The notes under the pieces were generated by a model. The model ran no database searches, was not told the DNA's origin, and saw only the letters and a program-made list of their open reading frames with translations. DNA of 64,000 nucleotides, taken from assembly GCA_017533785.1 (NCBI GenBank), contig JAFWII010000029.1, positions 1 to 64,000 on the forward strand, in the 5' to 3' direction. The DNA comes from Erysipelotrichaceae bacterium. Its GTDB lineage: Bacteria; Bacillota_I; Bacilli_A; Erysipelotrichales; Erysipelotrichaceae. This document shows positions 28,670 to 53,660 of this stretch, piece after piece (within the stretch, counting starts at the first letter, position 1; each line of letters opens with the position of its first letter). A program made the position numbers and the translations under genes.

Positions 28670-28691
28670 ATATCACTCCATCTTTTTAGAT

Positions 28692-35489: not shown

Positions 35490-36610
35490 TATTTACTCTC
35501 CATCATTTCCTTGAACGATTCGATGATCGTCGCAGCCTGTTCGTAATTCTCCATCTGGCGGTCGACCTCGACCTCCACGATCGGCAGTCCGGCTGCCTTG
35601 CAGGCGTTGCGGATCAGCGGATAATCGAATTCTTCGGGGTCGCAGAACTTCGTCAGGATCATCAGCACACCGTCGGCTTCGACGGCCTTGGCGGTCTCGA
35701 CCAGGGTCTCGACACGGCGCTTCAGCGGATCATAGAGCACGGAGCAGTTGTCCCTGCTGGCGTGTTTCTTCGCCAGCGCGACCAGTCCGTCGTTGCCTGC
35801 TTCGATATCTGTCTTGTACTGACGGCTTTCGGCGGCGATATCATCCGCCACGATCTGCAGTCCGTTTTCATCGAGGATCTGCAGCAGCGACGGTGCGTCG
35901 GCCAGGATGCCGGTCGTAACGATGCGCAGTTTCTTTCCTTCTGCTTTCTGTTCTTTCAGCTCCTTCAGGAACTGTTTCAGCAGGGCGGAGTGCTCCTCTT
36001 TGCGTAAGAAGGTCGCGCTCTTGAAGATCCAGCTGCGCTGCTGGGCGCTGATCTCCGGATGAGCAGCCAGTTCCTTTACGGTCTCGCGCATCAGCGCGTT
36101 ATGTTCGTTGTAGATCTCCAAAGAGACGCGCAGCAGTTTTTCGGAGAAGACCTTGCCGGTCGCCTTCTGCAGGTCGGCGATGACTCTCTCATAACTGTGC
36201 AGCGTATACTCGAGCGCATACTCCGGCTTGCGGTTCTGCGGATAGGTCATCGGGATAAAGGGGATCGACGGAACGGCGTATTTCCAGTTCTCGCCCAGGA
36301 CTTTCAGAGAGTCGCAGAGAGAGGGAACGATTAGGGCGCTGACGCCTTCGTAAGCGCCTTTCATGCCCAGTTCCAGGATCGACTGCACGATCGAACAGAT
36401 GAAGGCCGGGAAATAGCGTTTGGACTGGTTCAGCTGCAGATCGCCGCCCCAGGCGCCCATCGGGACAAGACCCATGGAGTGGACGATCTCTTCCGGCGTA
36501 TAGACCGGCGCGACCAGCACGATCTGCTTGCCTTCCGCCAGATAGCGTTCTTTCAGGGCTTCCGGATGTTCGGCTGCCTCTTGGAATTTCTTCAGGATAT
36601 CGTCAAGCAT
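35489..36610 (-). CDS. 2-Hydroxyacyl-CoA dehydratase, beta-type subunit
   Basis: 373 aa of the HgdB/HadC/FldC family. VAPVYTPEEIVHSMGLVPMG near the start and conserved cysteines in FPAFICSIVQSI, VPSLCDSLKV and LTKFCDPEEFDYP could bind a [4Fe-4S] cluster. With the neighbouring subunit it forms the oxygen-sensitive dehydratase that removes water from (R)-2-hydroxyacyl-CoA to give enoyl-CoA by a ketyl-radical route. It needs one electron from the activator encoded upstream. Substrate chain is unknown. Confidence 0.88.
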   Translation of the reverse strand: MLDDILKKFQEAAEHPEALKERYLAEGKQIVLVAPVYTPEEIVHSMGLVPMGAWGGDLQLNQSKRYFPAFICSIVQSILELGMKGAYEGVSALIVPSLCDSLKVLGENWKYAVPSIPFIPMTYPQNRKPEYALEYTLHSYERVIADLQKATGKVFSEKLLRVSLEIYNEHNALMRETVKELAAHPEISAQQRSWIFKSATFLRKEEHSALLKQFLKELKEQKAEGKKLRIVTTGILADAPSLLQILDENGLQIVADDIAAESRQYKTDIEAGNDGLVALAKKHASRDNCSVLYDPLKRRVETLVETAKAVEADGVLMILTKFCDPEEFDYPLIRNACKAAGLPIVEVEVDRQMENYEQAATIIESFKEMMESK

Positions 36611-36611
36611 C

Positions 36612-37844
36612 TTAAGCCTCCTTGTTGGACTGCATGATCTCAGTCAGTCCCTGGACACGGGTATCGTACTGGGCCTCGGAGAAGTTGCGCGGATCCGCCT
36701 GGTCGCCGTCGAAACTGACGACCGGGATATCGCATTCCTTCCCGATCTGGCGGCTCATCTCGTACATGAAGCCGCTCCACAGTTTGCAGGAACGGTTGGT
36801 ATGGACCAGCAGGCCCTCCACGCTGTTGTCCTTGCAGAGCTTGATCCGCTTGTCTCTTGCGTATTCGAGGTTGATCGCGTTCGGCACTTTCGCATAAGTG
36901 CGGCACATGTCGTCGAAGTCCTTGTAGATGAAACCGAATGCGTCGGCATAGATCGTGGTGACCATGTTGATGCCACGGTCGCGCAGACCGTGCGCAGTGA
37001 CCCGCAGCCACGGCCAGCAGGCGATGCCTTCGAACATGATGCGGTATTTCTCTTCGCCGCGGTAGGTGCTGACGCCCTTCTCGTGGTTTTCCTTATATTC
37101 CTTCAATAAGGTCTCCATCGCTTCCGCCGCTTCGAGCTTGCCTCTGGCGGTGACCATGACAGCCATGTGATTCAGCAGGTCAAAGCCGTTGAACGGAGAC
37201 GGCGTGTATTTCGCGGTAGCCGTCGCTTCAAGCCAGGCGCGGCTGGTGCGTCCGGAGATCTCCATGACCTCACGGTAGCGGTCCCAGCTCCATTTCTTCC
37301 CGGTGATCTCCTCCAGCTGTCTGATCGCGTCCAGGAACTGGTTTTTGATATACGCGACTTCGGAGTCGGAGACTTCATAGTCGGGATTGAACGGGATATC
37401 GATCATGATCATCGGGATATTGAGTTCTCTTGAGAGGTTCTCATACCATTTGATCATGCAGTTGCAGATGTTGTTGCAGCATAAGACGTAGTCCGGCATC
37501 GGCACCGGCTGTTCATCAGCCTGGGCGCCGGATGCGTACGCCAGCGAGATGCGCGCGTAAGCGCAGATATCGTTGGAATAGCCCTGTCCTTCCGCGACCG
37601 AGCACATCCTTTCACCGCCGCCGCGGGCGGCAATGCCGGCTGCCTGGTTTTCCGGGTAGCAGACATACAGACCGAGCGTCTCCGGGATCTCGACCGGGAA
37701 GTTGCTGGAGCACCAGCCGACGAGCTCTCCCCTTTCCTTGGCTGCGAACGCGTCATCATACGCCTTCTTGGCGATCATGTTGAGCTTGTATTTCGCAGAA
37801 TTCGGATCCAGAGGCGGTCTCTGTTTCTTGATTTCTTCAGCCAT
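36612..37844 (-). CDS. 2-Hydroxyacyl-CoA dehydratase, alpha-type subunit
   Basis: 410 aa from the ATG at 37844, which has AAAGGAGAG upstream; an earlier ATG ten codons back has none. Family features are WCSSNFPVEIPETLGLYVCY, MCSVAEGQGYSNDICAYARI, YVLCCNNICNCMIKWYEN and LVHTNRSCKLWSG, several of which supply cluster-binding cysteines. It pairs with the next gene product as the HgdA/HadB/FldB-type subunit. The start overlaps the activator gene by eight bases. Confidence 0.88.
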   Translation of the reverse strand: MAEEIKKQRPPLDPNSAKYKLNMIAKKAYDDAFAAKERGELVGWCSSNFPVEIPETLGLYVCYPENQAAGIAARGGGERMCSVAEGQGYSNDICAYARISLAYASGAQADEQPVPMPDYVLCCNNICNCMIKWYENLSRELNIPMIMIDIPFNPDYEVSDSEVAYIKNQFLDAIRQLEEITGKKWSWDRYREVMEISGRTSRAWLEATATAKYTPSPFNGFDLLNHMAVMVTARGKLEAAEAMETLLKEYKENHEKGVSTYRGEEKYRIMFEGIACWPWLRVTAHGLRDRGINMVTTIYADAFGFIYKDFDDMCRTYAKVPNAINLEYARDKRIKLCKDNSVEGLLVHTNRSCKLWSGFMYEMSRQIGKECDIPVVSFDGDQADPRNFSEAQYDTRVQGLTEIMQSNKEA

Positions 37845-38637
37845 CTTTTCTCTCCTTTGCAGTAGCGCGTTCATACGCGTGGATCGCCGCTCCGAGCGCG
37901 CCTGTCAGCTGCGCCAGCGGCGAGTATTCGATCTCTGTTCCGAGTTCTTCCGCAAGCGCCTCGCGGACGCCGCCGTTGATGGCGACACCACCGCTCATGC
38001 AGACTTTTTCCTCGATACCTGTCCGTTTGGCCAGCGCGCCGACGCGGCTGGCGACGGATCTGCAGATACCCTTGACGAGCGCCGGGATGTCGGCGCCGTT
38101 GGCAAGCTGGGAGATGACTTCGGATTCCGCGAACACCGTGCAGGTGCTCGAGATCTTCAGCGCCTCCTCCGCCCTGGCTGCCTCTTCTTCCAGCTGAGAG
38201 ACGTCGAGCTGCAGGATATTGGCCATGACTTCCAGGAAGCGGCCGGTGCCGGCAGCGCACTTATCGTTCATCAGGAAGCCGGTCATCCGCCCTTCCTCGT
38301 CGAGCTTCATGACCTTGGCGTCCTGTCCGCCGATATCGATGACAGTCCGTACTTCCGGGAACAGGAAGTGACTGCCCTTGGCGTGACAGCTGAGCTCGGA
38401 AAGCTGCGCATCCGCCTCTTCGTAGGTTTTTCGCCCGTACCCGGTGACAACGGTATAGGCGATCTCCTCATTTGTCAGACCGGAACTCTTCAGAAGCTCC
38501 TCCCTGACGGTCCCGGGACCTTTGGTGCCGGTCCCGGCGTGGATCAGATAGGTCGATACGACTTCGCTGCCATCCTTCAGGATGACGCCTTTGGAGGTCG
38601 TCGAACCGATATCGATCCCCATTGTGTAACAGCTCAT
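37837..38637 (-). CDS. 2-Hydroxyacyl-CoA dehydratase activator (ATPase)
   Basis: 266 aa of the BadF/BadG/BcrA/HgdC family. YTMGIDIGSTTSKGVILKDG is the ASKHA phosphate loop; VIDIGGQDAKVM and MNDKCAAGTGRFLEVMA carry the second loop and the Cys that, with a second conserved Cys (STCTVFAESEV), holds a [4Fe-4S] cluster between two subunits. It uses ATP to push one electron into the dehydratase. It corresponds to HadI/FldI. The stop overlaps the next start by eight bases. Confidence 0.92.
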   Translation of the reverse strand: MSCYTMGIDIGSTTSKGVILKDGSEVVSTYLIHAGTGTKGPGTVREELLKSSGLTNEEIAYTVVTGYGRKTYEEADAQLSELSCHAKGSHFLFPEVRTVIDIGGQDAKVMKLDEEGRMTGFLMNDKCAAGTGRFLEVMANILQLDVSQLEEEAARAEEALKISSTCTVFAESEVISQLANGADIPALVKGICRSVASRVGALAKRTGIEEKVCMSGGVAINGGVREALAEELGTEIEYSPLAQLTGALGAAIHAYERATAKERKDG

Positions 38638-39734
38638 TTCGCCGCTTTTGCCGCTTTGATCGAAGCGATCATTTTTGGAACGACTTCAAACAGGTCACCG
38701 GCGATGCCGTAGGTAGCTGCTTCAAAAATCGGGGCGGAAGGATTGGTGTTGACCGCGATGACGGTCTCGGAATCCTGCATGCCCGCTTTGTGCTGGATCG
38801 CACCGGAGATGCCCAGCGCGACATAGATCTTCGGACGGACGGTCTTGCCGGTCTGTCCGATCTGCAGTTCGTGGTCCAGCCAGCCGGCTTCGACTGCCGG
38901 ACGGGAACCGGCAACGACGCCGTTTCCCAGGACATCGGCGAGCTCCTGTGCGAGCGCCATGCCTTTTTCGACGTCTTTGGAGATGCCGGCGCCGACAGCG
39001 ACGACGATCTCCGCACCGGTCAGATCGACGCCCTTCTTTTCTTCGGTGACGATCTCCACGACCTTGACGAGCGGATCCTTCAGGGTGACGGAGTAGTCTT
39101 CCACGAGGACATTCTTCGCCTTGGTTTCGTCGAATTCGCCCTTCTTCATGACGCCCGGGCGGACCGTCGACATGCAGGGACGGAAACGCGGGCAGGTGAT
39201 CGTAGCCATCATATGACCGCCGAAAGCCGGACGTGTCATCTTGAGGTTGGTGTCTTCCATTTTGAACTTTCTCGTCGAGAGATCGATCGAGGAAGCTTCC
39301 TTCAGGAAGTCGAGGTATTTGTTCATATCGATGTCGAGATGGGTGCAGTCCGCGGTCAGGCCGGTATGCAGTCTTGCCGCGCAGCGCGGCGCCAGGTCAC
39401 GGCCGATCGTGGATGCCCCGATCAGCAGGACTTCCGGTTTCTTGTCCATGACGATCTGGCAGAGCGCGTCTGCATAGGTCTCGGAGGAGTAATCCTTCAG
39501 AGCCGGATCCTCGATCACGTAGACCTTGTCGGCGCCGTAGCCGCCAATCTCGTTGGCGAGGTCTTTGACGTTATAGCCGAGCAGAACGCCGACAAGTTGG
39601 GAATGACGCTCATCCGCCAGCTTGCGGCCTTCGGAAACGAGTTCGAAATCCGTTTCCATCAGTTTGCCGCGGCGCTGTTCACAGAAGACCCAGATATCGC
39701 GGAAATCTTCGATCTTTGCACTGTTGTATTCCAT
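38634..39734 (-). CDS. etfA: Electron-transfer flavoprotein alpha subunit
   Basis: 366 aa. The C-terminal FAD domain contains GSRPAVEAGWLDHELQIGQT, GKTVRPKIYVALGISGAIQH and AVNTNPSAPIFEAATYGIAG, the EtfA signature. An N-terminal extension of about 60 residues precedes the nucleotide-like fold (VGVLLGYNVKDLANEIGGYG), as in anaerobic Etf proteins linked to acyl-CoA reductases. No extra ferredoxin domain is present. With EtfB it passes electrons to the acyl-CoA dehydrogenase, possibly by bifurcation with NADH. The ATGA overlap joins it to the activator gene. Confidence 0.92.
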   Translation of the reverse strand: MEYNSAKIEDFRDIWVFCEQRRGKLMETDFELVSEGRKLADERHSQLVGVLLGYNVKDLANEIGGYGADKVYVIEDPALKDYSSETYADALCQIVMDKKPEVLLIGASTIGRDLAPRCAARLHTGLTADCTHLDIDMNKYLDFLKEASSIDLSTRKFKMEDTNLKMTRPAFGGHMMATITCPRFRPCMSTVRPGVMKKGEFDETKAKNVLVEDYSVTLKDPLVKVVEIVTEEKKGVDLTGAEIVVAVGAGISKDVEKGMALAQELADVLGNGVVAGSRPAVEAGWLDHELQIGQTGKTVRPKIYVALGISGAIQHKAGMQDSETVIAVNTNPSAPIFEAATYGIAGDLFEVVPKMIASIKAAKAAK

Positions 39735-39743
39735 GGGAGCCTC

Positions 39744-40544
39744 CTAGATCAGCTGCGCTTTGGCGAGCTTTGCCGCCAGCGCATCGGTCTTTTCCTGTGT
39801 CGTTCCTTCCAGCATCTCGCCGCCCTTGGCGACCGGCGGGGTAAAGGACTGGAAGATCGTCGTCGGAGAACCGGCCAGACCGATCGTAGTCTTATCGATC
39901 AGCGGTTCATTTTCCAGTGTCGGGTAATCGAGCACGGTGATCGGTCTGTCGAAGCATTCCAGGATGCCGCGGACCGTCATGTAGCGGGGTTCATTGAGTT
40001 CCTTGATGCAGGTGATCAGGACCGGCGTCTCGACCTCGACTTTCATATAGCCGTCTTCAGTCATGCGTTTGACGAAGACTTTGCCGTTTTCGTATTTCAC
40101 TTCCCCGGCGTAGGTGACCTGGGGGATGTTCAGTTTTTCCGCGATCTGCGGGCCGACCTGAGCGGTATCGCCGTCGATCGCCTGTCTGCCGCAGAAAATG
40201 ATGTCGTCCTTCTCAAGACCGAGGTGATGGATGCCTCCGGCGATGACCTGGGAGGTCGCAAAGGTATCGGAACCGCCGAATTCACGGCCGGAGATCAGGA
40301 CAGCCTTGTCGATGCCCATCGCATAGAGTTCGCGAAGCATGCTTTCGGCAGCCGGCGGACCCATGGTGACGGCGATGACTTCACAGCCTTCCTGGTCCTT
40401 GATCTGCAGGGCAGCCTCAACGGCATTGAGGTCGTCGGGGTTGATGATCGTTTTCATCGAAGCCCGGTCGAGGACACCGTTCTCTTTAACAGCGACTTTC
40501 CCGGATGTGTCCGGAACCTGTTTTACACATACATAGATCTTCAT
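39744..40544 (-). CDS. etfB: Electron-transfer flavoprotein beta subunit
   Basis: 266 aa. MKIYVCVKQVPDTSGKVAVK, the loop VIAVTMGPPAAESMLRELYA and FCGRQAIDGDTAQVGPQIAE identify EtfB. It binds the second flavin or AMP and docks on the dehydrogenase. Gene order acyl-CoA dehydrogenase - etfB - etfA matches the bcd-etfBA, acdB-etfBA and carCDE loci of anaerobes. Confidence 0.92.
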   Translation of the reverse strand: MKIYVCVKQVPDTSGKVAVKENGVLDRASMKTIINPDDLNAVEAALQIKDQEGCEVIAVTMGPPAAESMLRELYAMGIDKAVLISGREFGGSDTFATSQVIAGGIHHLGLEKDDIIFCGRQAIDGDTAQVGPQIAEKLNIPQVTYAGEVKYENGKVFVKRMTEDGYMKVEVETPVLITCIKELNEPRYMTVRGILECFDRPITVLDYPTLENEPLIDKTTIGLAGSPTTIFQSFTPPVAKGGEMLEGTTQEKTDALAAKLAKAQLI

Positions 40545-40553
40545 AGCTTCCTC

Positions 40554-41696
40554 CTAGCGCAAGAGCGAATTGGCGATGACCAGCTGCTGGATCTGGGAAG
40601 TACCTTCGTAGATGCTCATGATCCGCGCATCGCGGTAAAGACGTTCGACTTTGTAGTCCTTGATATAACCGTAACCGCCGAAGATCTGGACAGCCTTGTA
40701 GGCGACGCGGTTCGCCATTTCAGAGGCGAAGTACTTGGACATCGCGCATCTTGTGGAGGCGTCCGCCGTATTGGCGTCCTTGGCGATCGCGGTGGAATAG
40801 ATCAGTTCTCTGGCTGCTTCGATCTCGGTCGCCATATCGGCGATCATGAAGCTGACGCCCTGGTTGGCCGCGATCGGCTTGCCGAACTGTTTGCGCTCTT
40901 TTGCATAGCGGACCGCTTCTTCAAGACAGCCCTGCGCCAGGCCGAGCGCCTGCGCGGAGATGCCCAGACGGCCGTTGTCCAGTGTCTTCATGGCCATCCG
41001 GAAACCGTCGTTCAGCGGTCCCAGAAGATCAGCCTTGGAAACGCGGACATTGTCCATCGTGATATCGGATGTCGGATAGCCGTTGATGCCCATCTTGGCT
41101 TCCGCCTTGCCGATCGTGATGCCCGGCAGTTTCAGGTCGACGATGAACATCGAGATACCGCGGCTTCCCTTTGCGGCCGGATCCGTCTTGGCGTAGATGA
41201 TCGCGTAGTCGGCGATCGGAGCGCCGGAAACGAAGCATTTGCGTCCGTTCAGGATGAAATCATCTCCGTCCGCGACAGCGGTGGAAAGCGTGCCGCCGGC
41301 ATCGGAACCGGCACCCGGTTCGGTCAGCGCGAAGACGATGTGCTTCTTGCCGGACGCGATATCAGGCAGGTATTTCTTCTTCTGTTCCTCATTCCCGCAC
41401 ATGACCAGCGGTCCTCCGCCGAGGGAGTTCGGGGTATTGGCATAGATCGCCAGTACCGGGCAGACGCGGGCAAATTCCTCGATCATCAGCACGTAAGCCA
41501 GAGAGTCCCCTCCCTGTCCGCCGTATTCGACCGGGATCTTGACCCCCGTAAAGCCGTAACGGGCCATCTTGTGGTACATTTCCGCTTCATATCCGCCTTC
41601 CGTATCGAGCTTTTTCTGCAGCTCGTCAGTGAATTCGTTCTCGGCGAAATTGCGGAAATTCTTTCTCAGCAATTGGTATTTCTCCGGGAGAATCAT
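40554..41696 (-). CDS. Acyl-CoA dehydrogenase (enoyl-CoA reductase direction)
   Basis: 380 aa. The FAD region has CFALTEPGAGSDAG-like text (IVFALTEPGAGSDAGGTLST, about residue 125), GNEEQKKKYLPDIASGKKHI precedes it, and the catalytic base sits in SIYEGTSQIQQLVIAN (Glu about residue 367). Partnered with EtfBA and a dehydratase, it most likely reduces a 2-enoyl-CoA to the saturated acyl-CoA, as AcdB, AcdA and CarC do. It is the first gene of a ten-gene operon, with AACGGAGGT upstream of the ATG. Confidence 0.9.
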   Translation of the reverse strand: MILPEKYQLLRKNFRNFAENEFTDELQKKLDTEGGYEAEMYHKMARYGFTGVKIPVEYGGQGGDSLAYVLMIEEFARVCPVLAIYANTPNSLGGGPLVMCGNEEQKKKYLPDIASGKKHIVFALTEPGAGSDAGGTLSTAVADGDDFILNGRKCFVSGAPIADYAIIYAKTDPAAKGSRGISMFIVDLKLPGITIGKAEAKMGINGYPTSDITMDNVRVSKADLLGPLNDGFRMAMKTLDNGRLGISAQALGLAQGCLEEAVRYAKERKQFGKPIAANQGVSFMIADMATEIEAARELIYSTAIAKDANTADASTRCAMSKYFASEMANRVAYKAVQIFGGYGYIKDYKVERLYRDARIMSIYEGTSQIQQLVIANSLLR

Positions 41697-42700: not shown

Positions 42701-44011
42701 TTAAGCAGAACGTTTTTCCAGGACGTCGCGGATCATCTTCAGCGCCATCTCGGCAGCTTCGTCGATGCCGATCTCATCGGAACGGACGCAGAGGTCATAG
42801 TGTTCCGCCATGCCCCAGGTCTGACCGGTGATCTGCAGCGAATAGTTCTTACGGAATTCATCCTCGTGGCGGACGTATTCGGTCGCTTCTTCAACGCTCA
42901 TGCCGTTCATCTCCGCAAAGCGTTTTGCTCTTGCCTCAAGTTTCGCGCTGACAAAGAGGTCGAAGGTGTGCGGACGGTCTTTCAGAACATAGGCGCCCAG
43001 ACGGCCGACGATGACACAGTTCTCTTTGGATGCGACGTCGCGGATGATCTGCGACTGCGCGTCGAAGACCTGCTGCTGTCTCGACGGGTTCTGGGAATAG
43101 ACATAGGACTGCTGATAGAGAGAGTACAGCAGAGAGTTGGTGTTTCTTTCCTCGACCTTGCTGACTTCGTCGACAGTCAGGCCCATCTTGGCGGCTGTCT
43201 CAGTCAGCAGAGCGTAGTCATAAAAGGCATAACCGAGTTTCTCGGCCAGGATCTCGCCGATACGGTGGCCGCCGGAACCGAGCTCGCGTTCGACTGTAAT
43301 GACATGCGGGAAGCCGCTGATCTCTTCGGCGGTATGAACGGTCTTGACCGGAGCAACGCCCAGGAATCGGTCGACAGTCTTGTTGAGCAGACGGGAGAAG
43401 ACACCGACAAAGAAACCGACGAGAACGGCCGCCAGGATCGTGCCTTCACGGACCGCTTCCAGTTTGTGGAAGACGACCAGGGAGATGATCGTCGTCATGG
43501 CGATCATCGTGAAGTCGACCATGATCTTGACCTTGCCGAATTCTTTTCCGATCTTCTGGGAGATGACGGAGATCGCGCCTTCGGAAGCCATCGTTAAAAG
43601 GTTTGCCTTGACCTCCAGGAAAACGCCGATACCGTCAAGAGCGCAGGCAAATACTGCCATCGCGACGGCGATGACATAGTTCGCGGGGGTCACCCCGGCG
43701 AACAGTCTGTTGGCGAAGTCGATGAAGAAGCCGAAGATCACAACAGCGACGAGCTGCAGGAAACGGGTCGGCCGGAAGGCTTTCCCCAGCAGCACGATCT
43801 GGATGATAACGAATACGACATTGATCAGCGTATTGAAATTGCCCATGGAAAGCGGAAAGATCTGGCTCAGCACATAGGCGAGCGAAGCGGAAGGCGAAAC
43901 ACCAAGTCCCGAACGGGCGGAAAGCGCGATACCGCAGGAAAGGATGAACAGTCCTGCCACCAGCAGGAAACTGCGTTTTAACAGATCGGTCGTATTCAGT
44001 TTGTTTTTCAT
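42701..44011 (-). CDS. YczE/YitT-like membrane protein fused to a cytidylate-kinase-like domain
   Basis: 436 aa. Residues about 10-215 form five or six membrane helices of the YczE type (LLVAGLFILSCGIALSARSG, then SLAYVLSQIFPLSMGNFNTL). Residues about 225-436 form a cytoplasmic cytidylate-kinase-like (AAA_26) domain: VITVERELGSGGHRIGEILA with the modified P-loop, NCVIVGRLGAYVLKDRPHTF and HYDLCVRSDEIGIDEAA. The kinase half is usually a free protein. The fusion puts a nucleotide-binding switch on a membrane protein of unknown transport role. A terminator separates it from operon B upstream. Confidence 0.82.
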   Translation of the reverse strand: MKNKLNTTDLLKRSFLLVAGLFILSCGIALSARSGLGVSPSASLAYVLSQIFPLSMGNFNTLINVVFVIIQIVLLGKAFRPTRFLQLVAVVIFGFFIDFANRLFAGVTPANYVIAVAMAVFACALDGIGVFLEVKANLLTMASEGAISVISQKIGKEFGKVKIMVDFTMIAMTTIISLVVFHKLEAVREGTILAAVLVGFFVGVFSRLLNKTVDRFLGVAPVKTVHTAEEISGFPHVITVERELGSGGHRIGEILAEKLGYAFYDYALLTETAAKMGLTVDEVSKVEERNTNSLLYSLYQQSYVYSQNPSRQQQVFDAQSQIIRDVASKENCVIVGRLGAYVLKDRPHTFDLFVSAKLEARAKRFAEMNGMSVEEATEYVRHEDEFRKNYSLQITGQTWGMAEHYDLCVRSDEIGIDEAAEMALKMIRDVLEKRSA

Positions 44012-44094: not shown

Positions 44095-45366
44095 TTATTT
44101 CACATATCCCCATTTGTCAAGCGACGCCTGGAGTTCCGGATAGGCCTTTGCCTGTTCGCAGAAATCACCGCCCTTGCAGACGATATCGATCGCCTGCTGC
44201 ATCGCTCTGGCACCGGCTGTCGTTCCCATCGGATGGCCCTGGATCGAGCCGCCGGCTGCAAGCACGATATTCTTACCGGCTTCTCTGACGTAGCGTTCGA
44301 GGATGCCCGGGTGGACACCGCCGCCGATGCTGGGCATCGTCGGCTTGATGTTCCCAAGAGGCAGCGTCAGCTGCTGGAGGATCTGCAGGTATTTCTGCTT
44401 TCTCAGCGGATAGCCGCCGTACGGCGTATTCAGCATGACGATGTCGGCGCCTGCGATACGGGCCAGTTTGCCGACTGCCAGCGGGGTCGCCATACCGCTC
44501 AGGCTCGCTTCACAGAACATGCCGGCACCGGCCGAGTGACCGAGGATCGGCAGTTTCGTGTTCTCCGCGATGAATTTCAGAGTGCTGTAGCCGAGCACGG
44601 AAAAGTTGACCATCAGGCCGTCCGCGCCGGCCTCCTCGACCTTGCGGATGCTGTCGAGCAGTTCAGAGACACCGCCGGTGACGTTGACGAAGTATTTCGT
44701 TTCCTTGCCGGTCTTTTCCGCGGCCTTGCGGGCTGCTTCCTTGTAGGCTTTGACGCGTTGCTCGGGTTTCGAGTAGACCGGATTCCCGAAGAGCTCGTCG
44801 TCCTTGATGATGTCGACTCCGCCTAAAGCGGCTTCGTAGAAGATATTGGCGCCGGCTTCCTGAGAGATGCCGGTGCAGGGCTTGACCATGTTCAGCAGAA
44901 GCGGACGCTCCGTGACGCCGAACAGTTTCTGGACGCCCTCGATGCCGAAGCGCGGACCTTCGAAACGGTTCAGGAAAGCTTCGCTGAACTCGATGTCCAT
45001 CAGTTTGACCTGGGCGCTGGTCGAAGCGTCGTTGCCCAGCAGGGAGGTGATCATCAGCGGGAAATCGCTTCCGAAGTTGACCGTCGGATACGCGATCTGG
45101 ATCAGATAGCCCATCTTCTCCCCTTCGTAGACCGCGAGGTCTGTCGGCGGGACTTCGAAGATATTGACGACCTTGCCCATGTATTTTTCGCGGATCTCCT
45201 CGGTGATGCCCGGGATCGGGACCCAGGTGCCGATCGTCTGGCCTACTGCCAGCGATTCCGCTTTTTTGATGATATCGACTTCCGCGGGAAGTTCGATGTA
45301 ATAGCTGGCGATGACGACATCGGCCTTTTTTGCTGTCTCAGGCAGCATGAATCCTTTTTCATCCAT
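44095..45366 (-). CDS. RuBisCO-like protein (form IV, possibly OiaX-like)
   Basis: 423 aa, a RuBisCO large-chain homologue. The metal-binding and carbamate motif is kept as GGVDIIKDDELFGN (about residues 183-196). The active-site KPK becomes NMVKPCTGIS, and the loop-6 lysine of carboxylating forms is lost (region reads LNTPYGGYPL), so it cannot be a true RuBisCO. Known RLPs tautomerise or decarboxylate: DK-MTP-1-P enolases, and OiaX, which decarboxylates 3-oxo-isoapionate-4-phosphate to L-erythrulose-1-phosphate. It ends an operon with UlaG, an MBL hydrolase and a class II aldolase, so decarboxylation of a 3-keto sugar-acid phosphate is my best guess. Confidence 0.85.
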   Translation of the reverse strand: MDEKGFMLPETAKKADVVIASYYIELPAEVDIIKKAESLAVGQTIGTWVPIPGITEEIREKYMGKVVNIFEVPPTDLAVYEGEKMGYLIQIAYPTVNFGSDFPLMITSLLGNDASTSAQVKLMDIEFSEAFLNRFEGPRFGIEGVQKLFGVTERPLLLNMVKPCTGISQEAGANIFYEAALGGVDIIKDDELFGNPVYSKPEQRVKAYKEAARKAAEKTGKETKYFVNVTGGVSELLDSIRKVEEAGADGLMVNFSVLGYSTLKFIAENTKLPILGHSAGAGMFCEASLSGMATPLAVGKLARIAGADIVMLNTPYGGYPLRKQKYLQILQQLTLPLGNIKPTMPSIGGGVHPGILERYVREAGKNIVLAAGGSIQGHPMGTTAGARAMQQAIDIVCKGGDFCEQAKAYPELQASLDKWGYVK

Positions 45367-45377: not shown

Positions 45378-46616
45378 CTATTCCCAGCCATAGGCTTTCA
45401 ATAGTATTTTAAACTCATCTGCTACCACTTTGGCAAATTCCGGATCATTTACGGCTGCGTCGACGATAACGAGTTTTGTATTCGGAGAAACTCTCTCCCT
45501 GAATCTTTCGACCATCATCTCATCGATCGCCGGATCTGCGATCGGACCTCCCGGCGATGTCGTCTGACATCCTCCCTTCGTCGGAACGACCAGTGTTACC
45601 GGTTTTTTCGCGGTGGCGAGACGCTCACAGACGGTATCGACAAGTTTGACTGCTTCGGAAGGAACGACCTTGGAATGCCAGATGTTCTGGTTATGCAGGA
45701 TCGACTTTCTCTCCCTGAAGTCCGCCGGCAGGAACGTGCCGGTCTCTTCGTTGTAGTAATCGTTCATGTCGAGCCCGCCCGGGACGACCAAAGTCGGAAG
45801 ACCGTACTCGAGGGATTTCAGCAGACGGTTCTTGGCACCGGAACAGTAGCCGCCGAAGAGTTCGCAGACGATCTCGTGAAGCGTGTAATCAAGCACGGCA
45901 TTGATCTGCCCCTCTTCGATCAGAGATTCCATACAGCGTCCGCCGACGCCGTTGGCATGGAAGACGACCGTCTCATAATCGGTGCCTTCAGTGATCAGGC
46001 GGAGAGCTTCCATCGTGCCCTTGGTCGTTTCGCCCAGCATCGTCGCGGCGATGATCTTATGACCGCCGGTCTGATGATAGACTTCCCCGTATTTGACGAG
46101 GCCGGCTGTCGCTGCGCAGACGGAACGGATCAGGGTCTTGGTGATCGGATTGAGGCCGGCGATATCAGCCACGGTCGGGACGACGAAGATGTCTTTTTCA
46201 CCGACGAACTGCTCCATCTCACGGCTGCCGCAGGCAAGTGCCGAGGAAAGGACTTTCGGGAAGCCGAACGGCAGAGCCTTCATGACCGGCGCCGCCATGG
46301 CGCCGTTCTGGCCGCCGCCAACGGACATGATGCCATCGATCTTTCCTTCCTTATACAGTTTGCTTATCAGTTCGACAAGACCGGAAGTCATCGCTGCGAT
46401 CTTTTCCGGTTTGTTCAGTTTCAGGAAAGAATCCCGGTCCAGGGAAGCGTAACTCAGTACTTCGAGCGGCTGGATGTCACCCTTTCCTACGTCAAGGTTC
46501 CAGGTGCTGTTATCAATAAGCAGGGTATTGAGACCCTGCTTATTGATCATTTCCGCTGCGAAAAGAGATTCTTCCAGTTTGGTGTCCAGAGATTCTAAAA
46601 TCGCAACTGTCTTCAT
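45378..46616 (-). CDS. Tm-1-like ATP-binding domain protein (UPF0261), operon B
   Basis: 412 aa, a paralogue of the operon A protein. MKTVAILESLDTKLEESLFA, DGIMSVGGGQNGAMAAPVMK and FHANGVGGRCMESLIEEGQI match it position by position. The C-terminal region has VTLVVPTKGGCQTTSPGGPI, corresponding to VLLPTDGMRHNT in the other copy. No signal peptide or membrane segment. It lies between the RLP and the MBL hydrolase genes, so it may act directly before or after the RLP step. Confidence 0.85.
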   Translation of the reverse strand: MKTVAILESLDTKLEESLFAAEMINKQGLNTLLIDNSTWNLDVGKGDIQPLEVLSYASLDRDSFLKLNKPEKIAAMTSGLVELISKLYKEGKIDGIMSVGGGQNGAMAAPVMKALPFGFPKVLSSALACGSREMEQFVGEKDIFVVPTVADIAGLNPITKTLIRSVCAATAGLVKYGEVYHQTGGHKIIAATMLGETTKGTMEALRLITEGTDYETVVFHANGVGGRCMESLIEEGQINAVLDYTLHEIVCELFGGYCSGAKNRLLKSLEYGLPTLVVPGGLDMNDYYNEETGTFLPADFRERKSILHNQNIWHSKVVPSEAVKLVDTVCERLATAKKPVTLVVPTKGGCQTTSPGGPIADPAIDEMMVERFRERVSPNTKLVIVDAAVNDPEFAKVVADEFKILLKAYGWE

Positions 46617-46618: not shown

Positions 46619-47431
46619 TTATTCGCCGAGTTTCTTGCCGACCAGTTCGAGCATTTCCGGTGCATGTGCACAGAGGACGAATTCCGGACCGGCTGCGCGG
46701 TGTTTCAGTTCAACGATACTGTTCCAGGTCTCATTGATGTTGACGAAACGGGACGGCGGAGTGATCTCATAACCGATCTCCGGAACAGCCTTCAGGTTGT
46801 CCAGCGTGAAGATCAGGTCGCCGGCTAAATGGTAGTCGCCCTTCTTGGTATGAACGACAACGTTCTGATGACCGACGGAATGACCCGGCGTCGGGTATAC
46901 GCTGATGCCGTCGAAGATCTCGCATTCGCCGTCGAGCAGGACGAATTCACGGCCTTCCCACTGCGGATGGATGCGCGGTTCGATGTTCAGACGCGGATCT
47001 TCATAGCTCTTGTAGTAGAGCGGGATCGGGTTCTTGGCATATTCATATTCCTTGCGCTGTACGTAGAGCTTTGCGTTCGGGAATTCGCTGAGGTAGTAGA
47101 CATGGTCCCAGTGCAGGTGTGTGAAGATGATGTCTGTGATCTCTGCCGGATCAACGCCGATCGCCTTCAGCTGGTTTGTGACGATCTGGTCTTCGCTCTG
47201 GGTGGAACCCGGATGATGATACTTGTTGGCGATCTCAGTGGAAGACATGCCTGTGTCGACCATGATCTTCTTGCCGTTGCCTTCGATATAGAAGCAGGCT
47301 ACCGGCAGATAGGCGGTGTCATCTTCGCCCGGCTGGAGATAATACTTGTGTGTTGTATTGTGGTAGAGATAGTTTTTCTTACTGGCGGTAACGATACCGG
47401 TGTTCAGAGTTGTGACTGTGTATTCCTGCAT
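46619..47431 (-). CDS. MBL-fold metallohydrolase, AHL-lactonase-like (operon B)
   Basis: 270 aa. The metal motif is IIFTHLHWDHVYYLSEF, with KIMVDTGMSSTE before it and TPGHSVGHQNVVVHTKKGDY, HLAGDLIFTL and VLCAHAPEML after it. It is a shorter paralogue of the operon A hydrolase. A ligand difference from the operon A copy is the last His context (CAHAP versus LAHDY). Lactone opening is likely, and the true substrate is unknown. There is no export signal. Confidence 0.85.
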   Translation of the reverse strand: MQEYTVTTLNTGIVTASKKNYLYHNTTHKYYLQPGEDDTAYLPVACFYIEGNGKKIMVDTGMSSTEIANKYHHPGSTQSEDQIVTNQLKAIGVDPAEITDIIFTHLHWDHVYYLSEFPNAKLYVQRKEYEYAKNPIPLYYKSYEDPRLNIEPRIHPQWEGREFVLLDGECEIFDGISVYPTPGHSVGHQNVVVHTKKGDYHLAGDLIFTLDNLKAVPEIGYEITPPSRFVNINETWNSIVELKHRAAGPEFVLCAHAPEMLELVGKKLGE

Positions 47432-47447: not shown

Positions 47448-48059
47448 TTATTTCCCGAGTAGCAGATCCATCTTGCGTTTTTCCCAGAGGATCTGTGCGG
47501 TTTCTTCGATCAGTTCCGCTGTCTGACCGGCTTTGACAGCCGTTTTATCCATCGCGACGAGTCCATGGCGTTTGAGCAGGAAGCCCATGACGCCCGGATT
47601 CGCGTCGATCGCCGCGAAGACCTTCGGAAGTTCTTCCGGCGTAACGGACTGGGTAGTGACGTCAACGACCGGCATCGGCACTTTGAATTTCAGTTCCGTA
47701 TGCAGCGTGACGAGGTCGAGCTGGTCGAAATACATGGAGACGAGGATCGAGTATACGCTGTGCGTATGAACGATGCCGCCGATCTCCGGATATCTCTTGT
47801 AAAGATTGCCGTGAAGCGTGCACTCACGGGTGGGTTTGAATTTCCCGTCAACGAGGTTGCCGTCGAAATCCGTGATGCAGAGATTGTCTTCGGTGCAGCT
47901 GCCATAGGTAAAGCCGCTCGGCTTTACGATCATCAGCTCCGTTCCGGGGATACGGGTGCTGAGATTGCCGCCGGTCCCGGTCTGGATACCGGATTCATAA
48001 GTCCGCTTCGCTGCTTCGAGGAAATCGTTCTTCGCTTTAACAAATTCGGTGGAGCTCAT
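47448..48059 (-). CDS. Class II aldolase/adducin-family protein (operon B)
   Basis: 203 aa from the ATG at 48059, with AAAGGA six bases upstream; a TTG five codons earlier overlaps that site. Zinc ligands lie in GGIVHTHSVYSILV and LLKRHGLVAMDK; TGTGGNLSTRIPGTELMIVK is the phosphate-binding part. It is a paralogue of the operon A aldolase. As there, the Glu that starts catalysis in fuculose-type aldolases is not in its usual place (region KPTRECTLHG), so decarboxylation or isomerisation is as likely as aldol cleavage. Confidence 0.82.
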   Translation of the reverse strand: MSSTEFVKAKNDFLEAAKRTYESGIQTGTGGNLSTRIPGTELMIVKPSGFTYGSCTEDNLCITDFDGNLVDGKFKPTRECTLHGNLYKRYPEIGGIVHTHSVYSILVSMYFDQLDLVTLHTELKFKVPMPVVDVTTQSVTPEELPKVFAAIDANPGVMGFLLKRHGLVAMDKTAVKAGQTAELIEETAQILWEKRKMDLLLGK

Positions 48060-48085
48060 AATAATTCCTTTCAAAACAGATAAAT

Positions 48086-48122: not shown

Positions 48123-48926
48123 TCAGTCTACAAGTGTTCCGGCCAGCGGCAGCCATTCAAGGACGCGGCGGATCGCAGGATCCCAGTAATCCCAGTTATG
48201 GATACCCGGGGATTCCTCGTACGTCAGGTCGATGCCTTCTGCCAGCATGGCGTCACGGAAACGCAGATTGGCTTCATATAAGAAGTCTTCGGTGCCGCAG
48301 CACTGATACAGTTTCGGAAGTCTTCCCTCCTTCTGACGTTTCGGCAGAAGGGCGAAGAGGTCGTCATCGCTTCCCTTGATCTCTCTGTCGCCGAAGATGT
48401 CTTCGATCGGCATTCTGGAAGTCGGGCCGCCCTTGAAGGTGCCGTCTTTGCTTCTTGCCGTCATGTCGAGACCGCCGGAAAGGCTGGCAGCCGCGCCGAA
48501 CATCTCCGGCTTCTCGCCCATCAGACGGAAGGTGCCGTAGCCGCCCATCGAAAGACCGGCGATGAAGGTATCTTCTCTTCTGGTCGAGACCGGGAAAGTA
48601 TTGTTGATGAATGCCGGAAGTTCTTCAAGCATATAGGTCATGAACTTGCCGCCGTGGACCATATCCACGTAGCAGCTGTTGGTCACCGAAGCGCTGACGA
48701 CACAGAGGGATTTCTCCTGCGCATAGCGTTCGATGCCGGTGTTTCTCGTCCAGACCGTGCAGTCACCGTGCATTCCATGAAGCAGATAGAGGACCTGATA
48801 CTTCTTTCCCTTGTAATAAGGCTTGGCATCCGGTTTGAACGGCTCATCCGGGGTCGGTAAGACGACCCGGATGTCCGTATTTGTAAACAACGTCGTCGAG
48901 AATAACTTAACGTCGATCAGTGCCAT
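48123..48926 (-). CDS. Esterase of the EstA/S-formylglutathione-hydrolase type
   Basis: 267 aa alpha/beta hydrolase. VLYLLHGMHGDCTVW is the oxyanion region, FIAGLSMGGYGTFRLMGEKP the nucleophile elbow (Ser about residue 122), CCGTEDFLYEANLRF the acid region and SPGIHNWDYWDPAI the catalytic His. Relatives hydrolyse short-chain or feruloyl-type esters. No signal peptide, so it acts on an imported ester or acyl-sugar. Placed between UlaG and the aldolase gene, it may remove an acyl group from the sugar taken up by the operon's transporter. Confidence 0.85.
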   Translation of the reverse strand: MALIDVKLFSTTLFTNTDIRVVLPTPDEPFKPDAKPYYKGKKYQVLYLLHGMHGDCTVWTRNTGIERYAQEKSLCVVSASVTNSCYVDMVHGGKFMTYMLEELPAFINNTFPVSTRREDTFIAGLSMGGYGTFRLMGEKPEMFGAAASLSGGLDMTARSKDGTFKGGPTSRMPIEDIFGDREIKGSDDDLFALLPKRQKEGRLPKLYQCCGTEDFLYEANLRFRDAMLAEGIDLTYEESPGIHNWDYWDPAIRRVLEWLPLAGTLVD

Positions 48927-50069: not shown

Positions 50070-51083
50070 CTAAGCCGCCTTCTTTGAAAGACGTCTCTTT
50101 AAGTTGTTGAGCGGGGTGCCGGGCTGATTCGCCATATCCATAGCTACCGCTACGATGATGATGATACCCTTCGCCATATCCTTATAGATAGACGGAACGC
50201 CCATCAGGTTCATACCGTTTTCGATGACACCGATCAGGAAGGCACCGAGGATTGCGTTCTGGATGGAACCGGAACCACCACGCATGGAGACACCGCCGAC
50301 GACGATGGCAGCCAGGACGTTGTTTTCGTAGTTCTTCGCCTGTCCCGCGGAAGCCTGCTGGTTCATACTGGAAAGAACGAAACCGGCTAAAGCGCCCATG
50401 AAACCGGAGATGATGTAGGCGATCAGGATGACTTTACGAGCCGGGACACCGGACAGTTCGGAAGACTGACGGTTGCCGCCGACGGAGTAGACCTGACGGC
50501 CGTAAACAGTATGGTTCAGAATGATGTAGGCAAACAGAATGCATGCCAGCATGATGTAGACCGGGATCGGGATACCGAGCCAGCGGACCTGTCCGATGTA
50601 GTCCATCAGCGTACAGCCGTTGACATAGATCAGGGTGTTGCTGGTGACCAGCTGAACGAAACCGTAGAGGACTTCGTTGGTAGCCAGGGTCAGCAGGAAG
50701 GCCGGGATGTTGAATCTCGAGAGGATCAGACCATGGATCAGACCGCTCAGGACGCCTGCGCCGAGACCTAAGAAGATCGCCAGTGCGACGTTGCTGCCGC
50801 CGACACCCTTGTTGAGGATCGTCATAGCGACGATCGCGCCGGATAATGCCGCGTTACCGGATACGGTACGGTCGATGCCGCCAAGCAGGACTGCGAAGCA
50901 GGCACCGCAGATCATGATACCGATCAGGGATACGGAGTAAAGAATATTGACAAGGTTCTTATAGCTGAAGAAGGTACCTTTTGTCGCGATCGTGAAGAAG
51001 ACAGCCAGGATCAGCAGAACGAGGATACGGCTGCTGCCGAGGATCGCCTTTACGACCGGATTGTTCTTAACGCTGTTGCTCAT
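50070..51083 (-). CDS. Sugar ABC transporter permease 2 (operon B)
   Basis: 337 aa, RbsC-like, with about nine membrane helices. FAVLLGGIDRTVSGNAALSG and AAIVVGGVSMRGGSGSIQNA are the conserved loops. The C-terminus is short and basic (NLKRRLSKKAA). It partners with the second permease encoded at 52608-53624. It lies two bases after the ATPase gene. Confidence 0.9.
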   Translation of the reverse strand: MSNSVKNNPVVKAILGSSRILVLLILAVFFTIATKGTFFSYKNLVNILYSVSLIGIMICGACFAVLLGGIDRTVSGNAALSGAIVAMTILNKGVGGSNVALAIFLGLGAGVLSGLIHGLILSRFNIPAFLLTLATNEVLYGFVQLVTSNTLIYVNGCTLMDYIGQVRWLGIPIPVYIMLACILFAYIILNHTVYGRQVYSVGGNRQSSELSGVPARKVILIAYIISGFMGALAGFVLSSMNQQASAGQAKNYENNVLAAIVVGGVSMRGGSGSIQNAILGAFLIGVIENGMNLMGVPSIYKDMAKGIIIIVAVAMDMANQPGTPLNNLKRRLSKKAA

Positions 51084-51084
51084 A

Positions 51085-52605
51085 TTACGCAGCCTCCTTT
51101 GTCTCGTTTACAAAACCGGAGCTTGCGAGCAGGATGTCTTCCTGAGTAGCGACGCCGTTATTGAATTCCTTGATGATTCTGCCTTCACGCATAACGATGA
51201 TGCGGTGAGCAACACGCAGGACTTCCGCGATATCCGAAGATACCATCAGTACGGCAACACCCTTGCTTGCCAGATCTTCGATAATGTTGTAGATCTCGTC
51301 TTTCGCGCCGATATCGATACCGACAGTCGGTTCGTCGATCAGAACGACTTTCAGATCACGGGTAAGCCATTTACCTAAGACGGCTTTCTGCTGGTTACCA
51401 CCGGAGAGGTTACCGACCTGGACATTCGGGTTAGCCGGACGGAGGTCTGTCAGCTCAACGGCTTTGCGGCCAAGCGCGTCTTCATCTTTCTTATTGACGA
51501 AACCGCCCTTTGCGATCTTGTCATAGCTTGTCAGCGCGACGTTGCCTGTTACGGTAAGCAGCGGGGAGAAGCCCTGAGTACGACGGTCTTCCGGGATCAG
51601 ACCGAAACCGTTCGCAACGGATTTCTTGATCGTCGGTTTGATGGGCTTGCCTTCGAAGATGATCTCGCCCTTATCAAACGGATCCGCACCGTAGATCGAA
51701 CGGACGACTTCGGTACGTCCGGAACCGACCAGACCGGTCAGAACGAGAACTTCGCCTTTTTTGACCTGGAAGCTGACATCGTAGTAGTAACCGAGATGTG
51801 TCAGATTCTTGACTTCGAGTTCCGTTTCGGCATCACTGGTGTGCAGTGCACGGGAAGCGGTGGATTCGGAGATCTCCTTACCGATCATCATCTTGACGAC
51901 TTCGGACGGAACGATGTTTTCCTTTTCGATAACACCGGCATTCTTACCATCGCGCAGGATCGTGATGCGGTCGGAGAGGTTGAATACTTCTTCCAGACGG
52001 TGAGAGATATAGATAATGGAAACGCCTCTGTCGCGGAGCTGGTTGATGATCTTGTAGAGCAGTTCGGATTCTCTGGAGGACAGAGAAGCGGTCGGCTCGT
52101 CCATGATGATCAGTTTTGCTTCGGTAGCAAGGGCTTTCAGGATTTCGACCATCTGTTTCTGGGCAACGGACAGTGTTTCGACGATGTCAGTCGCCTTTAC
52201 CGGGAAGCCGTAGCGATCGATCAGTTCCTGGATCTGTTTCTTTTCGGAAGCGTCGGAAATGAAACCGAATTTGCTGGTTTCCTTACCGAGAAGGATGTTT
52301 TGATAAACGGAAAGGGTCGGAACTAAGGATAATTCCTGGAAGATGACCGCGATACCAGCCTCAGCTGCGTCTTCACGGCTGTTGATCTCGATCTCTTTGC
52401 CATCCATAAAGATCTGTCCGCCGTCTTTGGAATAAACGCCGGTCAGGATCTTGATCAGGGTCGATTTACCTGCACCGTTTTCTCCTAACAGCGCATGGAC
52501 TTCGCCCTTGCGAACATCGAAGTTGACATGGTCAAGCGCATGGACATGAGCGAATATCTTTTCGATATTCTTCATCTCAAACAATAATTCGTTCTTTTCA
52601 CTCAT
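51085..52605 (-). CDS. Sugar ABC transporter ATPase, RbsA/MglA type (operon B)
   Basis: 506 aa with two ABC domains. Domain 1: Walker A LLGENGAGKSTLIKIL, signature LSVAQKQMVEILKALA, Walker B IIMDEPTASLS. Domain 2: GLVGSGRTEVVRSIYG, LSGGNQQKAVLGKWLT and VLIDEPTVGID. It energises sugar uptake. It lies between the two permease genes and is only two bases from each, so the cluster is transcribed as one. Confidence 0.93.
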   Translation of the reverse strand: MSEKNELLFEMKNIEKIFAHVHALDHVNFDVRKGEVHALLGENGAGKSTLIKILTGVYSKDGGQIFMDGKEIEINSREDAAEAGIAVIFQELSLVPTLSVYQNILLGKETSKFGFISDASEKKQIQELIDRYGFPVKATDIVETLSVAQKQMVEILKALATEAKLIIMDEPTASLSSRESELLYKIINQLRDRGVSIIYISHRLEEVFNLSDRITILRDGKNAGVIEKENIVPSEVVKMMIGKEISESTASRALHTSDAETELEVKNLTHLGYYYDVSFQVKKGEVLVLTGLVGSGRTEVVRSIYGADPFDKGEIIFEGKPIKPTIKKSVANGFGLIPEDRRTQGFSPLLTVTGNVALTSYDKIAKGGFVNKKDEDALGRKAVELTDLRPANPNVQVGNLSGGNQQKAVLGKWLTRDLKVVLIDEPTVGIDIGAKDEIYNIIEDLASKGVAVLMVSSDIAEVLRVAHRIIVMREGRIIKEFNNGVATQEDILLASSGFVNETKEAA

Positions 52606-52607
52606 GG

Positions 52608-53624
52608 TTATTTACCTGCATTTTCCTTTTCACGTGCCAGAGCAGCAGCTCTTGTTGTACGCTTCTGCATGAATTCGTTGTAGTAAGCGTCGAATACGAG
52701 CATCAAAACGATGATAGTACCACTGATGATGGACTGCTGTGCGGTCGTCATGTTGAACTTCAGGACACCGTTACGCAATACCTGCATGAACAGGACACCG
52801 ATCAGAGTACCGATCATGTCACCGCGGCCGCCGGAGAAAGCTGCGCCGCCGATAACAGCAGCAGAGATCGCCTGCAGGTTCAGAGCAGTACCGGTATTAA
52901 CGTCACAGGTGCCGTTACGGCCCAGGGTGAACATGGCAGCTACGAAGGACATGAATCCTGCGATAGTGAAGGCAACCATCTTGACCTTGATGAAGCTGAT
53001 ACCGGAATACTCTGCAGATTTGCGGTTTGCGCCCATCGCGTAGATATATGTACCCATCTTGGTTTTCTTCAGGAAGATCTGCATGACCACTGTCAGGATC
53101 AGCCATACGATCGTAACATAATAGATACCGTTCGGCAGTCTGCCGCCGAGGGCAGCCATCGTCGGGTTCTTGATCATTTCAGAAGTGATCGAACCATACT
53201 GGTTACGGACAGCCAGGACATAGGTGATTCCCTGGAAGATCATACCTGTCGAAAGTGTGGCGACAAAGTCCGGAACCTGAAGGATAGCGACGACGAAGCC
53301 GTTGAACAGACCGGAGAGCAGACCGCCCAGCAGGCTGAGCAGAACGATCGCGATCAGTGACATAGCGGTGTAGTGGTAGAGGTGTGCAAAGATCATGCAG
53401 CACATACCGACAGCCAGACCTCCGGAAAGGTTGTTACCGCCGGTGATGATACATGTCGTGACACCTATAGCAATAAGGCCGATGAAGGCCGCTTCACGCA
53501 GCATCGAAGTAATGTTGTCCCATGAGAGGAAAGTGTCGGTCGTCAGCGTAAAGACAACGGTCAACACTATCAACAGAACAAGTGAAATGATTCGACGCAG
53601 CGTTTCCTGTCTCATTTGTTTCAT
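52608..53624 (-). CDS. Sugar ABC transporter permease 1 (operon B)
   Basis: 338 aa, RbsC-like. TTCIITGGNNLSGGLAVGMC and SAAVIGGAAFSGGRGDMIGT are the signature loops. The N-terminal helix follows a basic start (MKQMRQETLRRIISLVLLIV). The C-terminal tail is long and charged. It follows the binding-protein gene after a 92-bp gap with a hairpin. Confidence 0.9.
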   Translation of the reverse strand: MKQMRQETLRRIISLVLLIVLTVVFTLTTDTFLSWDNITSMLREAAFIGLIAIGVTTCIITGGNNLSGGLAVGMCCMIFAHLYHYTAMSLIAIVLLSLLGGLLSGLFNGFVVAILQVPDFVATLSTGMIFQGITYVLAVRNQYGSITSEMIKNPTMAALGGRLPNGIYYVTIVWLILTVVMQIFLKKTKMGTYIYAMGANRKSAEYSGISFIKVKMVAFTIAGFMSFVAAMFTLGRNGTCDVNTGTALNLQAISAAVIGGAAFSGGRGDMIGTLIGVLFMQVLRNGVLKFNMTTAQQSIISGTIIVLMLVFDAYYNEFMQKRTTRAAALAREKENAGK

Positions 53625-53660
53625 AAATTAGACTCCTTATTTACTACGTTTTTTTATGAA

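Follow-up and report, generated by a model that had tools for sequence, protein, structure and literature searches.

What reaction does a RuBisCO-like protein (RLP) serve in a gut bacterium, where its gene is the last of an operon for a sugar ABC transporter and several hydrolases? The question arises from the window, the whole 64,000-nucleotide stretch analysed here from an Erysipelotrichaceae bacterium (contig JAFWII010000029.1). The host genome is a 1.8 Mb draft of 88% completeness, and the RLP is its sole PF00016 protein. A preliminary description of the gene had proposed metal-dependent proton chemistry or decarboxylation without CO2 fixation, and had read this from two lost lysines.

44095-45366, minus strand: RuBisCO-like protein (RLP), 423 aa, ATG start, final gene of operon 1

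The open reading frame matches PF00016 at 148 bits and PF02788 at 34 bits, both above cut-off, and falls beneath the cut-off of the type III RuBisCO model in the curated profile search. Its AlphaFold model, made with a 31-row alignment, has a mean pLDDT of 91.5, and the top structure matches are the MtnW chains 2oej, 2oek and 2oem with a TM of about 0.9. By alignment and predicted fold, the protein is a form IV RLP with the RuBisCO large-subunit fold and homology across both domains. As aligned, it shows the form IV combination of replaced carboxylase residues and a retained metal cluster.

The residues were numbered by alignment to the form I RuBisCO of Paracoccus (L114). The metal cluster lies in GGVDIIKDDELFGN, just as the preliminary description had quoted it, with K188, D190 and E191 on RuBisCO K201, D203 and E204. 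Also retained are K175, H294 (here H277), N123 (here N112), G380, G381, G403 and G404. The two lysine losses had been read correctly as well, both motifs being letter-exact. MVKPCTG gives K162-P163-C164, with K162 on K175 and C164 on K177, and LNTPYGGYPL places G318 on the loop-6 K334.

Hence neither lysine of the carboxylase, K177 or K334, is present, and the pattern differs from true RuBisCO as had been claimed. Relative to RuBisCO, the active site also carries the changes R295S, H327M, S379G and E60G, which the preliminary description had missed. R295, H327 and S379 we take to form the second-phosphate site of RuBisCO, so one phosphate site is probably gone.

These features recur among the relatives. 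K201, D203, E204, K175 and H294 are unchanged in 88/88 non-redundant RLP rows, and position K177 is Cys in 78, Asp in six, Asn in four and Lys in none, and the RLP references examined have no Lys there either. K334 is missing in all 23 rows of the clade that holds the window's RLP and kept in 63 of the 65 other RLP rows. It is also kept in 63/64 rows with an acid at position 60 and in 0/24 rows without one. E60 and K334 were lost jointly once or twice, in the window's clade plus the MtnW-branch row L086. With so few events behind the association, its Fisher P-value was not used. As judged from the alignment, the residue pattern is conserved and not a product of chance, and it argues against CO2 fixation.

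The two lysine losses were rejected as evidence of function, being too unspecific, since MtnW shows both. The preliminary description had held the pattern to be distinct from MtnW, and this part fails. In the MtnW reference, V and S replace the two lysines. Row L086 of the MtnW branch is also without both and has a Cys at K177, as does PDB 4nas, an entry titled MtnW whose aligned sequence here is FKACAG. The description had itself named shared substitutions in MtnW as the finding that would speak against it, and the alignment places substitutions there at both K177 and K334.

The ancestry was resolved with the best 80 of 148 relatives. The stretches L017-L109 gave no RLP row from L038, L063, L084, L098 and L108 and two from L037, while L107 and L109, as duplicates of L018 and L019, entered neither the trees nor the counts. 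In a 46-row tree, the RLP falls in a 23-row clade with support of 100/99, and MtnW is its sister branch with 93/90. No inner branch of the tree is longer than the one that separates OiaX and its kin from the clade. A 94-row tree is concordant.

The clade spans three phyla, Bacillota, Chloroflexota and Actinomycetota. Among named relatives, Erysipelotrichaceae drafts are the nearest, including L018 and L019 from goat and sheep gut, and the gene is present in 14 of 315 genomes of the order. By the tests run, the protein belongs to neither MtnW nor OiaX. In a search that reached little of the subscription literature, we found no publication on this clade or on an RLP with UPF0261.

Gene context is a better guide to function than the lost lysines. 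Upstream of the RLP gene, operon 1 comprises the following.

45378-46616, minus strand: UPF0261 (Tm-1-like) protein, putative substrate kinase; PF06792 and PF23189, with the Tm-1/Saro_1862 fold
46619-47431, minus strand: metallo-beta-lactamase-fold (MBL) hydrolase, probable lactonase; PF00753, AHL-lactonase-like but beneath cut-offs
47448-48074, minus strand: ald1, class II aldolase/adducin family; PF00596, beneath the AraD, MtnB and OtnC cut-offs
48123-48926, minus strand: putative esterase; PF00756
48939-50045, minus strand: UlaG, L-ascorbate-6-phosphate lactonase family; NF008688 at 590 bits against a cut-off of 306
50070-54817, minus strand: sugar ABC transporter of operon 1 (permease, ATPase, permease, binding protein)
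53717-54817, 52608-53624, 51085-52605 and 50070-51083, minus strand: the ABC genes in transcription order

The order of transcription is ABC transporter, UlaG, esterase, ald1, MBL, UPF0261 and RLP with small gaps, that between UPF0261 and RLP being 11 bases. UlaG also matches PDB 2wyl at 481 bits. Promoter and terminator scans gave chance-level results.

Two other features lie beyond the RLP gene on the same strand. One (42701-44011) is a DUF6198/YitT-like membrane domain fused to a cytidylate kinase-like domain. The other (34245-41696), just downstream of the operon, reads from its open reading frames as a cluster of a CoA-transferase, EtfAB, an acyl-CoA dehydrogenase, and 2-hydroxyacyl-CoA dehydratase subunits with their activator.

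A second operon, paralogous to operon 1 and without an RLP, occupies 20272-29880.

20272-21054, minus strand: TpiA2, a second TpiA, LerI-like; PF00121
21056-21499, minus strand: RpiB2, a second RpiB, DerI-like; PF02502
21586-22341, minus strand: GntR-type regulator of operon 2, read from the open reading frame, with homologues at the corresponding position of L196, L197 and L200
22387-22992, minus strand: class II aldolase-family protein of operon 2
23006-24259, minus strand: second UPF0261 protein; PF06792, and NF002674 at 341 bits against a cut-off of 335
24335-25216, minus strand: second MBL-fold lactonase-like protein
25243-29880, minus strand: sugar ABC transporter of operon 2, read from open reading frames, with L197 and L200 in the same order

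Its order is ABC transporter, MBL, UPF0261, aldolase, GntR, RpiB and TpiA. The RpiB-TpiA pair lies 23 kb from the RLP gene; both are second copies, the housekeeping RpiB and TpiA being on other contigs. Operon 2 resembles two loci of relatives that do hold an RLP. In L096, UPF0261, RLP, RpiB, TpiA, ald, ABC and MBL stand together, and in L088, ABC, MBL, UPF0261, ald and RLP do so, RpiB and TpiA being absent from the stretch read.

The same partners recur across the clade, in counts that exclude the window itself (22 of the 23 rows). An RpiB and/or TpiA lies within 9 kb of the RLP in 12/22 clade loci and 1/65 other RLP rows, and an MBL in 10/22 and 1/65. The class II aldolase family follows with 11/22 against 5/65 and UPF0261 with 12/22 against 11/65, and none of these counts are independent draws, as 12 of the 22 loci come from the window's own family. 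The RpiB/TpiA linkage recurs outside that family in the cultured Paenibacillus pasadenensis MER37 (L020) and Clostridiaceae (L096), and in the Actinomycetota locus L023 as a partial TpiA match. RLP, RpiB and TpiA are contiguous in L100-L102. Ten of the 22 loci have no nearby RpiB or TpiA, some of them on short contigs.

A galactitol-type PTS adjoins in L100 and L103-L106. The neighbour of the RLP is UPF0261 in loci of the ABC type and a PTS in those of the PTS type, and no clade locus has both UPF0261 and a PTS IIC within 9 kb. Genome-wide, four g19 genomes have the PTS without UPF0261, and the four g1 genomes as well as G065, G069 and G116 have UPF0261 without the PTS. Both occur in G089 and G084 and neither in G080. 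A strict alternation of the two was thus rejected, being true of neighbourhoods and broken genome-wide by G089 and G084.

In two loci of the clade (L021 and L024), the RLP instead neighbours a TIM-barrel (TBST) protein along with UPF0261. RLP beside UPF0261 and one or two TBST proteins is seen in these two and in other RLP lineages (L026, L028-L030, L038, L039, L048, L049, L054, L062 and L068). UPF0261 and TBST are the pair fused in plant Tm-1, so RLP meets UPF0261 in two settings. Separately, the RLP of L109 (G080, about 16400-19000) comes directly after AraD and a partial UlaE match, which reflects a deletion or else a join made in assembly.

The sister branch and the aldolase-family neighbours bring up a first alternative. 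In it, ald1 would act like MtnB and dehydrate a ketose phosphate, and the RLP would enolise the resulting diketone, as in methionine salvage. The sister position of MtnW (93/90), its rank as the closest solved structure, the aldolase-family gene in half of the clade loci and the 87 bits of ald1 against MtnB (cut-off 137) all fit. The RLP itself, however, scores beneath the cut-offs of both MtnW models (TIGR03332, 297 against 513.6; NF007095, 337 against 409). It also has Asn112 where MtnW has a Lys, K98 in Geobacillus kaustophilus MtnW at the N123 position, which is presumably the base.

That position is Asn in 86/88 RLP rows and Lys only in the MtnW-branch row L086; Lys is also found in L110 and five MtnW-type PDB alignments among those listed. 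Moreover, TpiA and RpiB have no place in such a pathway, and the PTS locus L100 has no ald gene. We consider an MtnW-like tautomerase unlikely.

TpiA and RpiB point instead to the oiaX operons. The annotated oiaX neighbours are called here LerI, ApnO, ApnL and DerI, the last being also an NCBIfam name. Plasmid records were searched with the RLP and with RpiB2. Of eight annotated oiaX loci taken from the RLP search, four are rhizobial operons that run oiaX, four-carbon acid sugar kinase, triose-phosphate isomerase and RpiB, and a ninth, reached through RpiB2, has the same oiaX-kinase-TpiA-RpiB order. The kinase adjoins oiaX in seven of the eight.

The partners of OiaX are found here too, with LerI and DerI homologues at 20272-21499 in the window and contiguous with the RLP in relatives. 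Over 252 aa, TpiA2 has 44% identity with the TpiA encoded in an oiaX operon. In the TpiA tree, it and its pathway relatives lie on the same side as the oiaX-operon TpiA, apart from the housekeeping TpiA, and the two share an extended loop, with IGVNGxPA or a similar motif, not present in the housekeeping copies. RpiB2 matches an oiaX-operon DerI with 47% identity across 93 aa. It reaches 123 bits against NF051858 (DerI), beneath the cut-off of 240, and does not group with DerI in an RpiB gene tree in which several rows are local BLAST fragments. On these comparisons, the assignment of RpiB2 to DerI appears less clear than that of TpiA2 to LerI.

The upstream genes do not correspond. The window and 101 related stretches gave 0 matches to the DUF1537 kinase, the ApnO-like PGDH_C protein, the Gfo/Idh dehydrogenase and the large lactonase-like protein of the oiaX operons. 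DUF1537 occurs elsewhere in 6 of the 14 RLP genomes, the window's own included, on other contigs. Judged by homology, then, the downstream end looks like that of the oiaX operon and the upstream end looks different. The RLP itself gives 184 bits against the OiaX model NF042437, whose cut-off is 700.

Decarboxylation is a reported RLP reaction: PMC6302742 states it for 3-oxo-isoapionate-4-phosphate, and PMC10176493 cites it among the RLP reactions. Analysis of the gene context suggests that the RLP probably works like OiaX though it is of a separate lineage. In the apionate pathway, the decarboxylation product is L-erythrulose-1-phosphate.

We favour, at slightly below even confidence, the reading that the RLP would do a job like that of OiaX, decarboxylating a beta-keto-acid phosphate to a tetrulose phosphate. 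A lactone or acid would be taken up by the transporter, the MBL protein would open the lactone ring, and phosphate would be added by UPF0261 in the ABC-transporter loci or by the PTS in the others. The substrate would be monophosphorylated, because the second-phosphate residues R295, H327 and S379 are gone. K188, presumably carbamylated, would hold Mg2+ together with D190 and E191. The RLP would then strip CO2 from a five-carbon beta-keto sugar-acid phosphate, the reverse of the bond-forming step of RuBisCO.

The metal would hold the enediolate left after CO2 loss, which would then be protonated. The product would be L-erythrulose-1-phosphate, or D-erythrulose-4-phosphate directly. TpiA2 (LerI-like) and RpiB2 (DerI-like) would convert the tetrulose phosphate to D-erythrose-4-phosphate, and the four-carbon sugar would thereby enter central metabolism. 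The route to the beta-keto acid is unexplained in this scheme because the upstream homologues of the oiaX operon have no match in the window or the 101 stretches; no ApnO-like oxidase is encoded near the RLP. The scheme also gives no role to ald1, UlaG and the esterase.

The functional guess of the preliminary description is thus supported in part, on evidence other than the one it gave. Proton chemistry or decarboxylation without fixation is plausible, with decarboxylation favoured, and the lysine losses prove neither.

The missing oxidation step would not matter to an isomerase, which would form the tetrulose or pentulose phosphate for TpiA2 and RpiB2 from a ketose phosphate by 1,3-proton transfer. 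No oxidised substrate is necessary for it, and the oxidoisomerase of the oiaX operons is encoded in none of the loci. A 1,3-proton transfer is reported for the Rhodospirillum rubrum RLP. Isomerisation is a known RLP reaction (PMC6302742, PMC10176493). Nevertheless, the rhizobial RLP that partners TpiA and RpiB is annotated as a decarboxylase, and we rate the isomerase as quite unlikely.

The same kind of C5 beta-keto-acid phosphate could also be cleaved by a transcarboxylase/hydrolase of the Xanthobacter type. The products of that reaction are 3-phosphoglycerate and glycolate. Transcarboxylation of 3-oxo-isoapionate-4-phosphate is indeed reported in PMC6302742. TpiA2 and RpiB2, the most specific partners, would then be needless, which leaves this reaction very improbable here.

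UlaG in the RLP operon, far above its cut-off (590 against 306 bits), suggests a different decarboxylation. The RLP would replace UlaD and convert 3-keto-L-gulonate-6-phosphate to L-xylulose-5-phosphate, from which UlaE and AraD would give D-xylulose-5-phosphate in an ABC-fed ascorbate pathway. UlaE and AraD are nearby and above cut-off, the sole PF00215 protein of the host's genome is PyrF, and seven genomes, this one included, have only one PF00215 match each.

The controls turn against it. Among 20 UlaG-positive, RLP-negative genomes, only four have a UlaD-like match as judged by score, and a missing UlaD is uninformative because the other 16 lack one. Three genomes (G089, G116 and G084) carry UlaG-est-UlaE-prop-AraD-MBL-UPF0261 without an RLP, and their RLP sits with RpiB-TpiA. 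Within the clade, UlaG is found only at L027 (33%) and in close relatives. The RLP is hence neither restricted to nor required in UlaD-lacking UlaG pathways. We rejected it as a UlaD substitute, absence of UlaD being common in the controls and RLP-free UlaG operons existing, and the replacement together with its onward route is decidedly improbable.

Beside AraD and UlaE lies a 344-aa protein (60179-61213, minus strand) with FG-GAP-like repeats by reading of its open reading frame. This beta-propeller protein has no Pfam or NCBIfam family and no PDB match better than an E of 0.2. Relatives lie between UlaE and AraD in the UlaG operons of L193, L194 and L198, in genomes without any PF00215 match. 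A possible role for it is that of the decarboxylating or rearranging enzyme otherwise missing from an ascorbate-like pathway without UlaD.

To return to the favoured decarboxylase, its substrate would have to be phosphorylated, and in operon 1 the candidate is UPF0261. The model of this protein matches Tm-1 (Z about 42) and PDB 9mpy (Z 33), the structure of the Novosphingobium aromaticivorans UPF0261 protein Saro_1862 in complex with acetovanillone. That organism begins acetovanillone breakdown with MarK, 'a single-component kinase' (PMC13101465). We infer that Saro_1862 is MarK, and a kinase role of UPF0261 appears likely from this analysis. HpeHI was rejected as a precedent for such a kinase, being an ATP-grasp dikinase (PMC12167813).

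The fuller claim is possible though doubtful: a separate RLP lineage would have independently become a sugar-acid-phosphate decarboxylase in a pathway whose kinase is of the UPF0261/Tm-1 family. If true, this orphan family would gain a role in carbohydrate catabolism, and RuBisCO scaffolds would have reached reverse carboxylation at least two times, feeding the same tetrulose-phosphate isomerases. UPF0261, found beside RLPs in two settings and in plants as Tm-1, gains a concrete hypothesis.

Few RLP functions are known, and the MtnW-adjacent clade would fill a branch between an enolase and a decarboxylase. Its testable tie to tetrulose-phosphate metabolism would shed light on the diversification of RuBisCO chemistry. 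The point of the tree where E60 and K334 were lost together would be the one at which RLPs abandoned the loop-6 machinery.

Compared with RuBisCO forms I-III, the RLP has the same fold and keeps K201/D203/E204, K175, H294 and N123, whereas K177, R295, H327, K334, S379 and E60 are all changed. With MtnW, the 2,3-diketo-5-methylthiopentyl-1-phosphate enolase among form IV RLPs, it shares the fold, the retained metal cluster and the lack of a Lys at K177 and K334. It differs by Asn112 in place of a Lys, by scores beneath the MtnW model cut-offs, and by the linkage of its clade to RpiB, TpiA, UPF0261 and MBL, with no mtnX or mtnD neighbour seen.

OiaX, the form IV 3-oxo-isoapionate-4-phosphate decarboxylase that the preliminary description had set beside MtnW, is a remote homologue, about 28% identical and outside the 23-row clade. 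It keeps R295 and K334, both replaced in the RLP, yet it shares the TpiA and RpiB operon partners. Both systems place an RLP and a putative kinase in a sugar-acid operon, with a dedicated TpiA-RpiB pair in that operon or a nearby one. The oiaX operons have the DUF1537 kinase where the clade loci have UPF0261 or a PTS. As to MarK, the neighbour of the RLP is a full-length UPF0261 protein with the Saro_1862 and Tm-1 fold. The sole bacterial UPF0261 structure found binds an aromatic ketone, whereas the context here is that of sugar acids, on which this protein would be the putative kinase.
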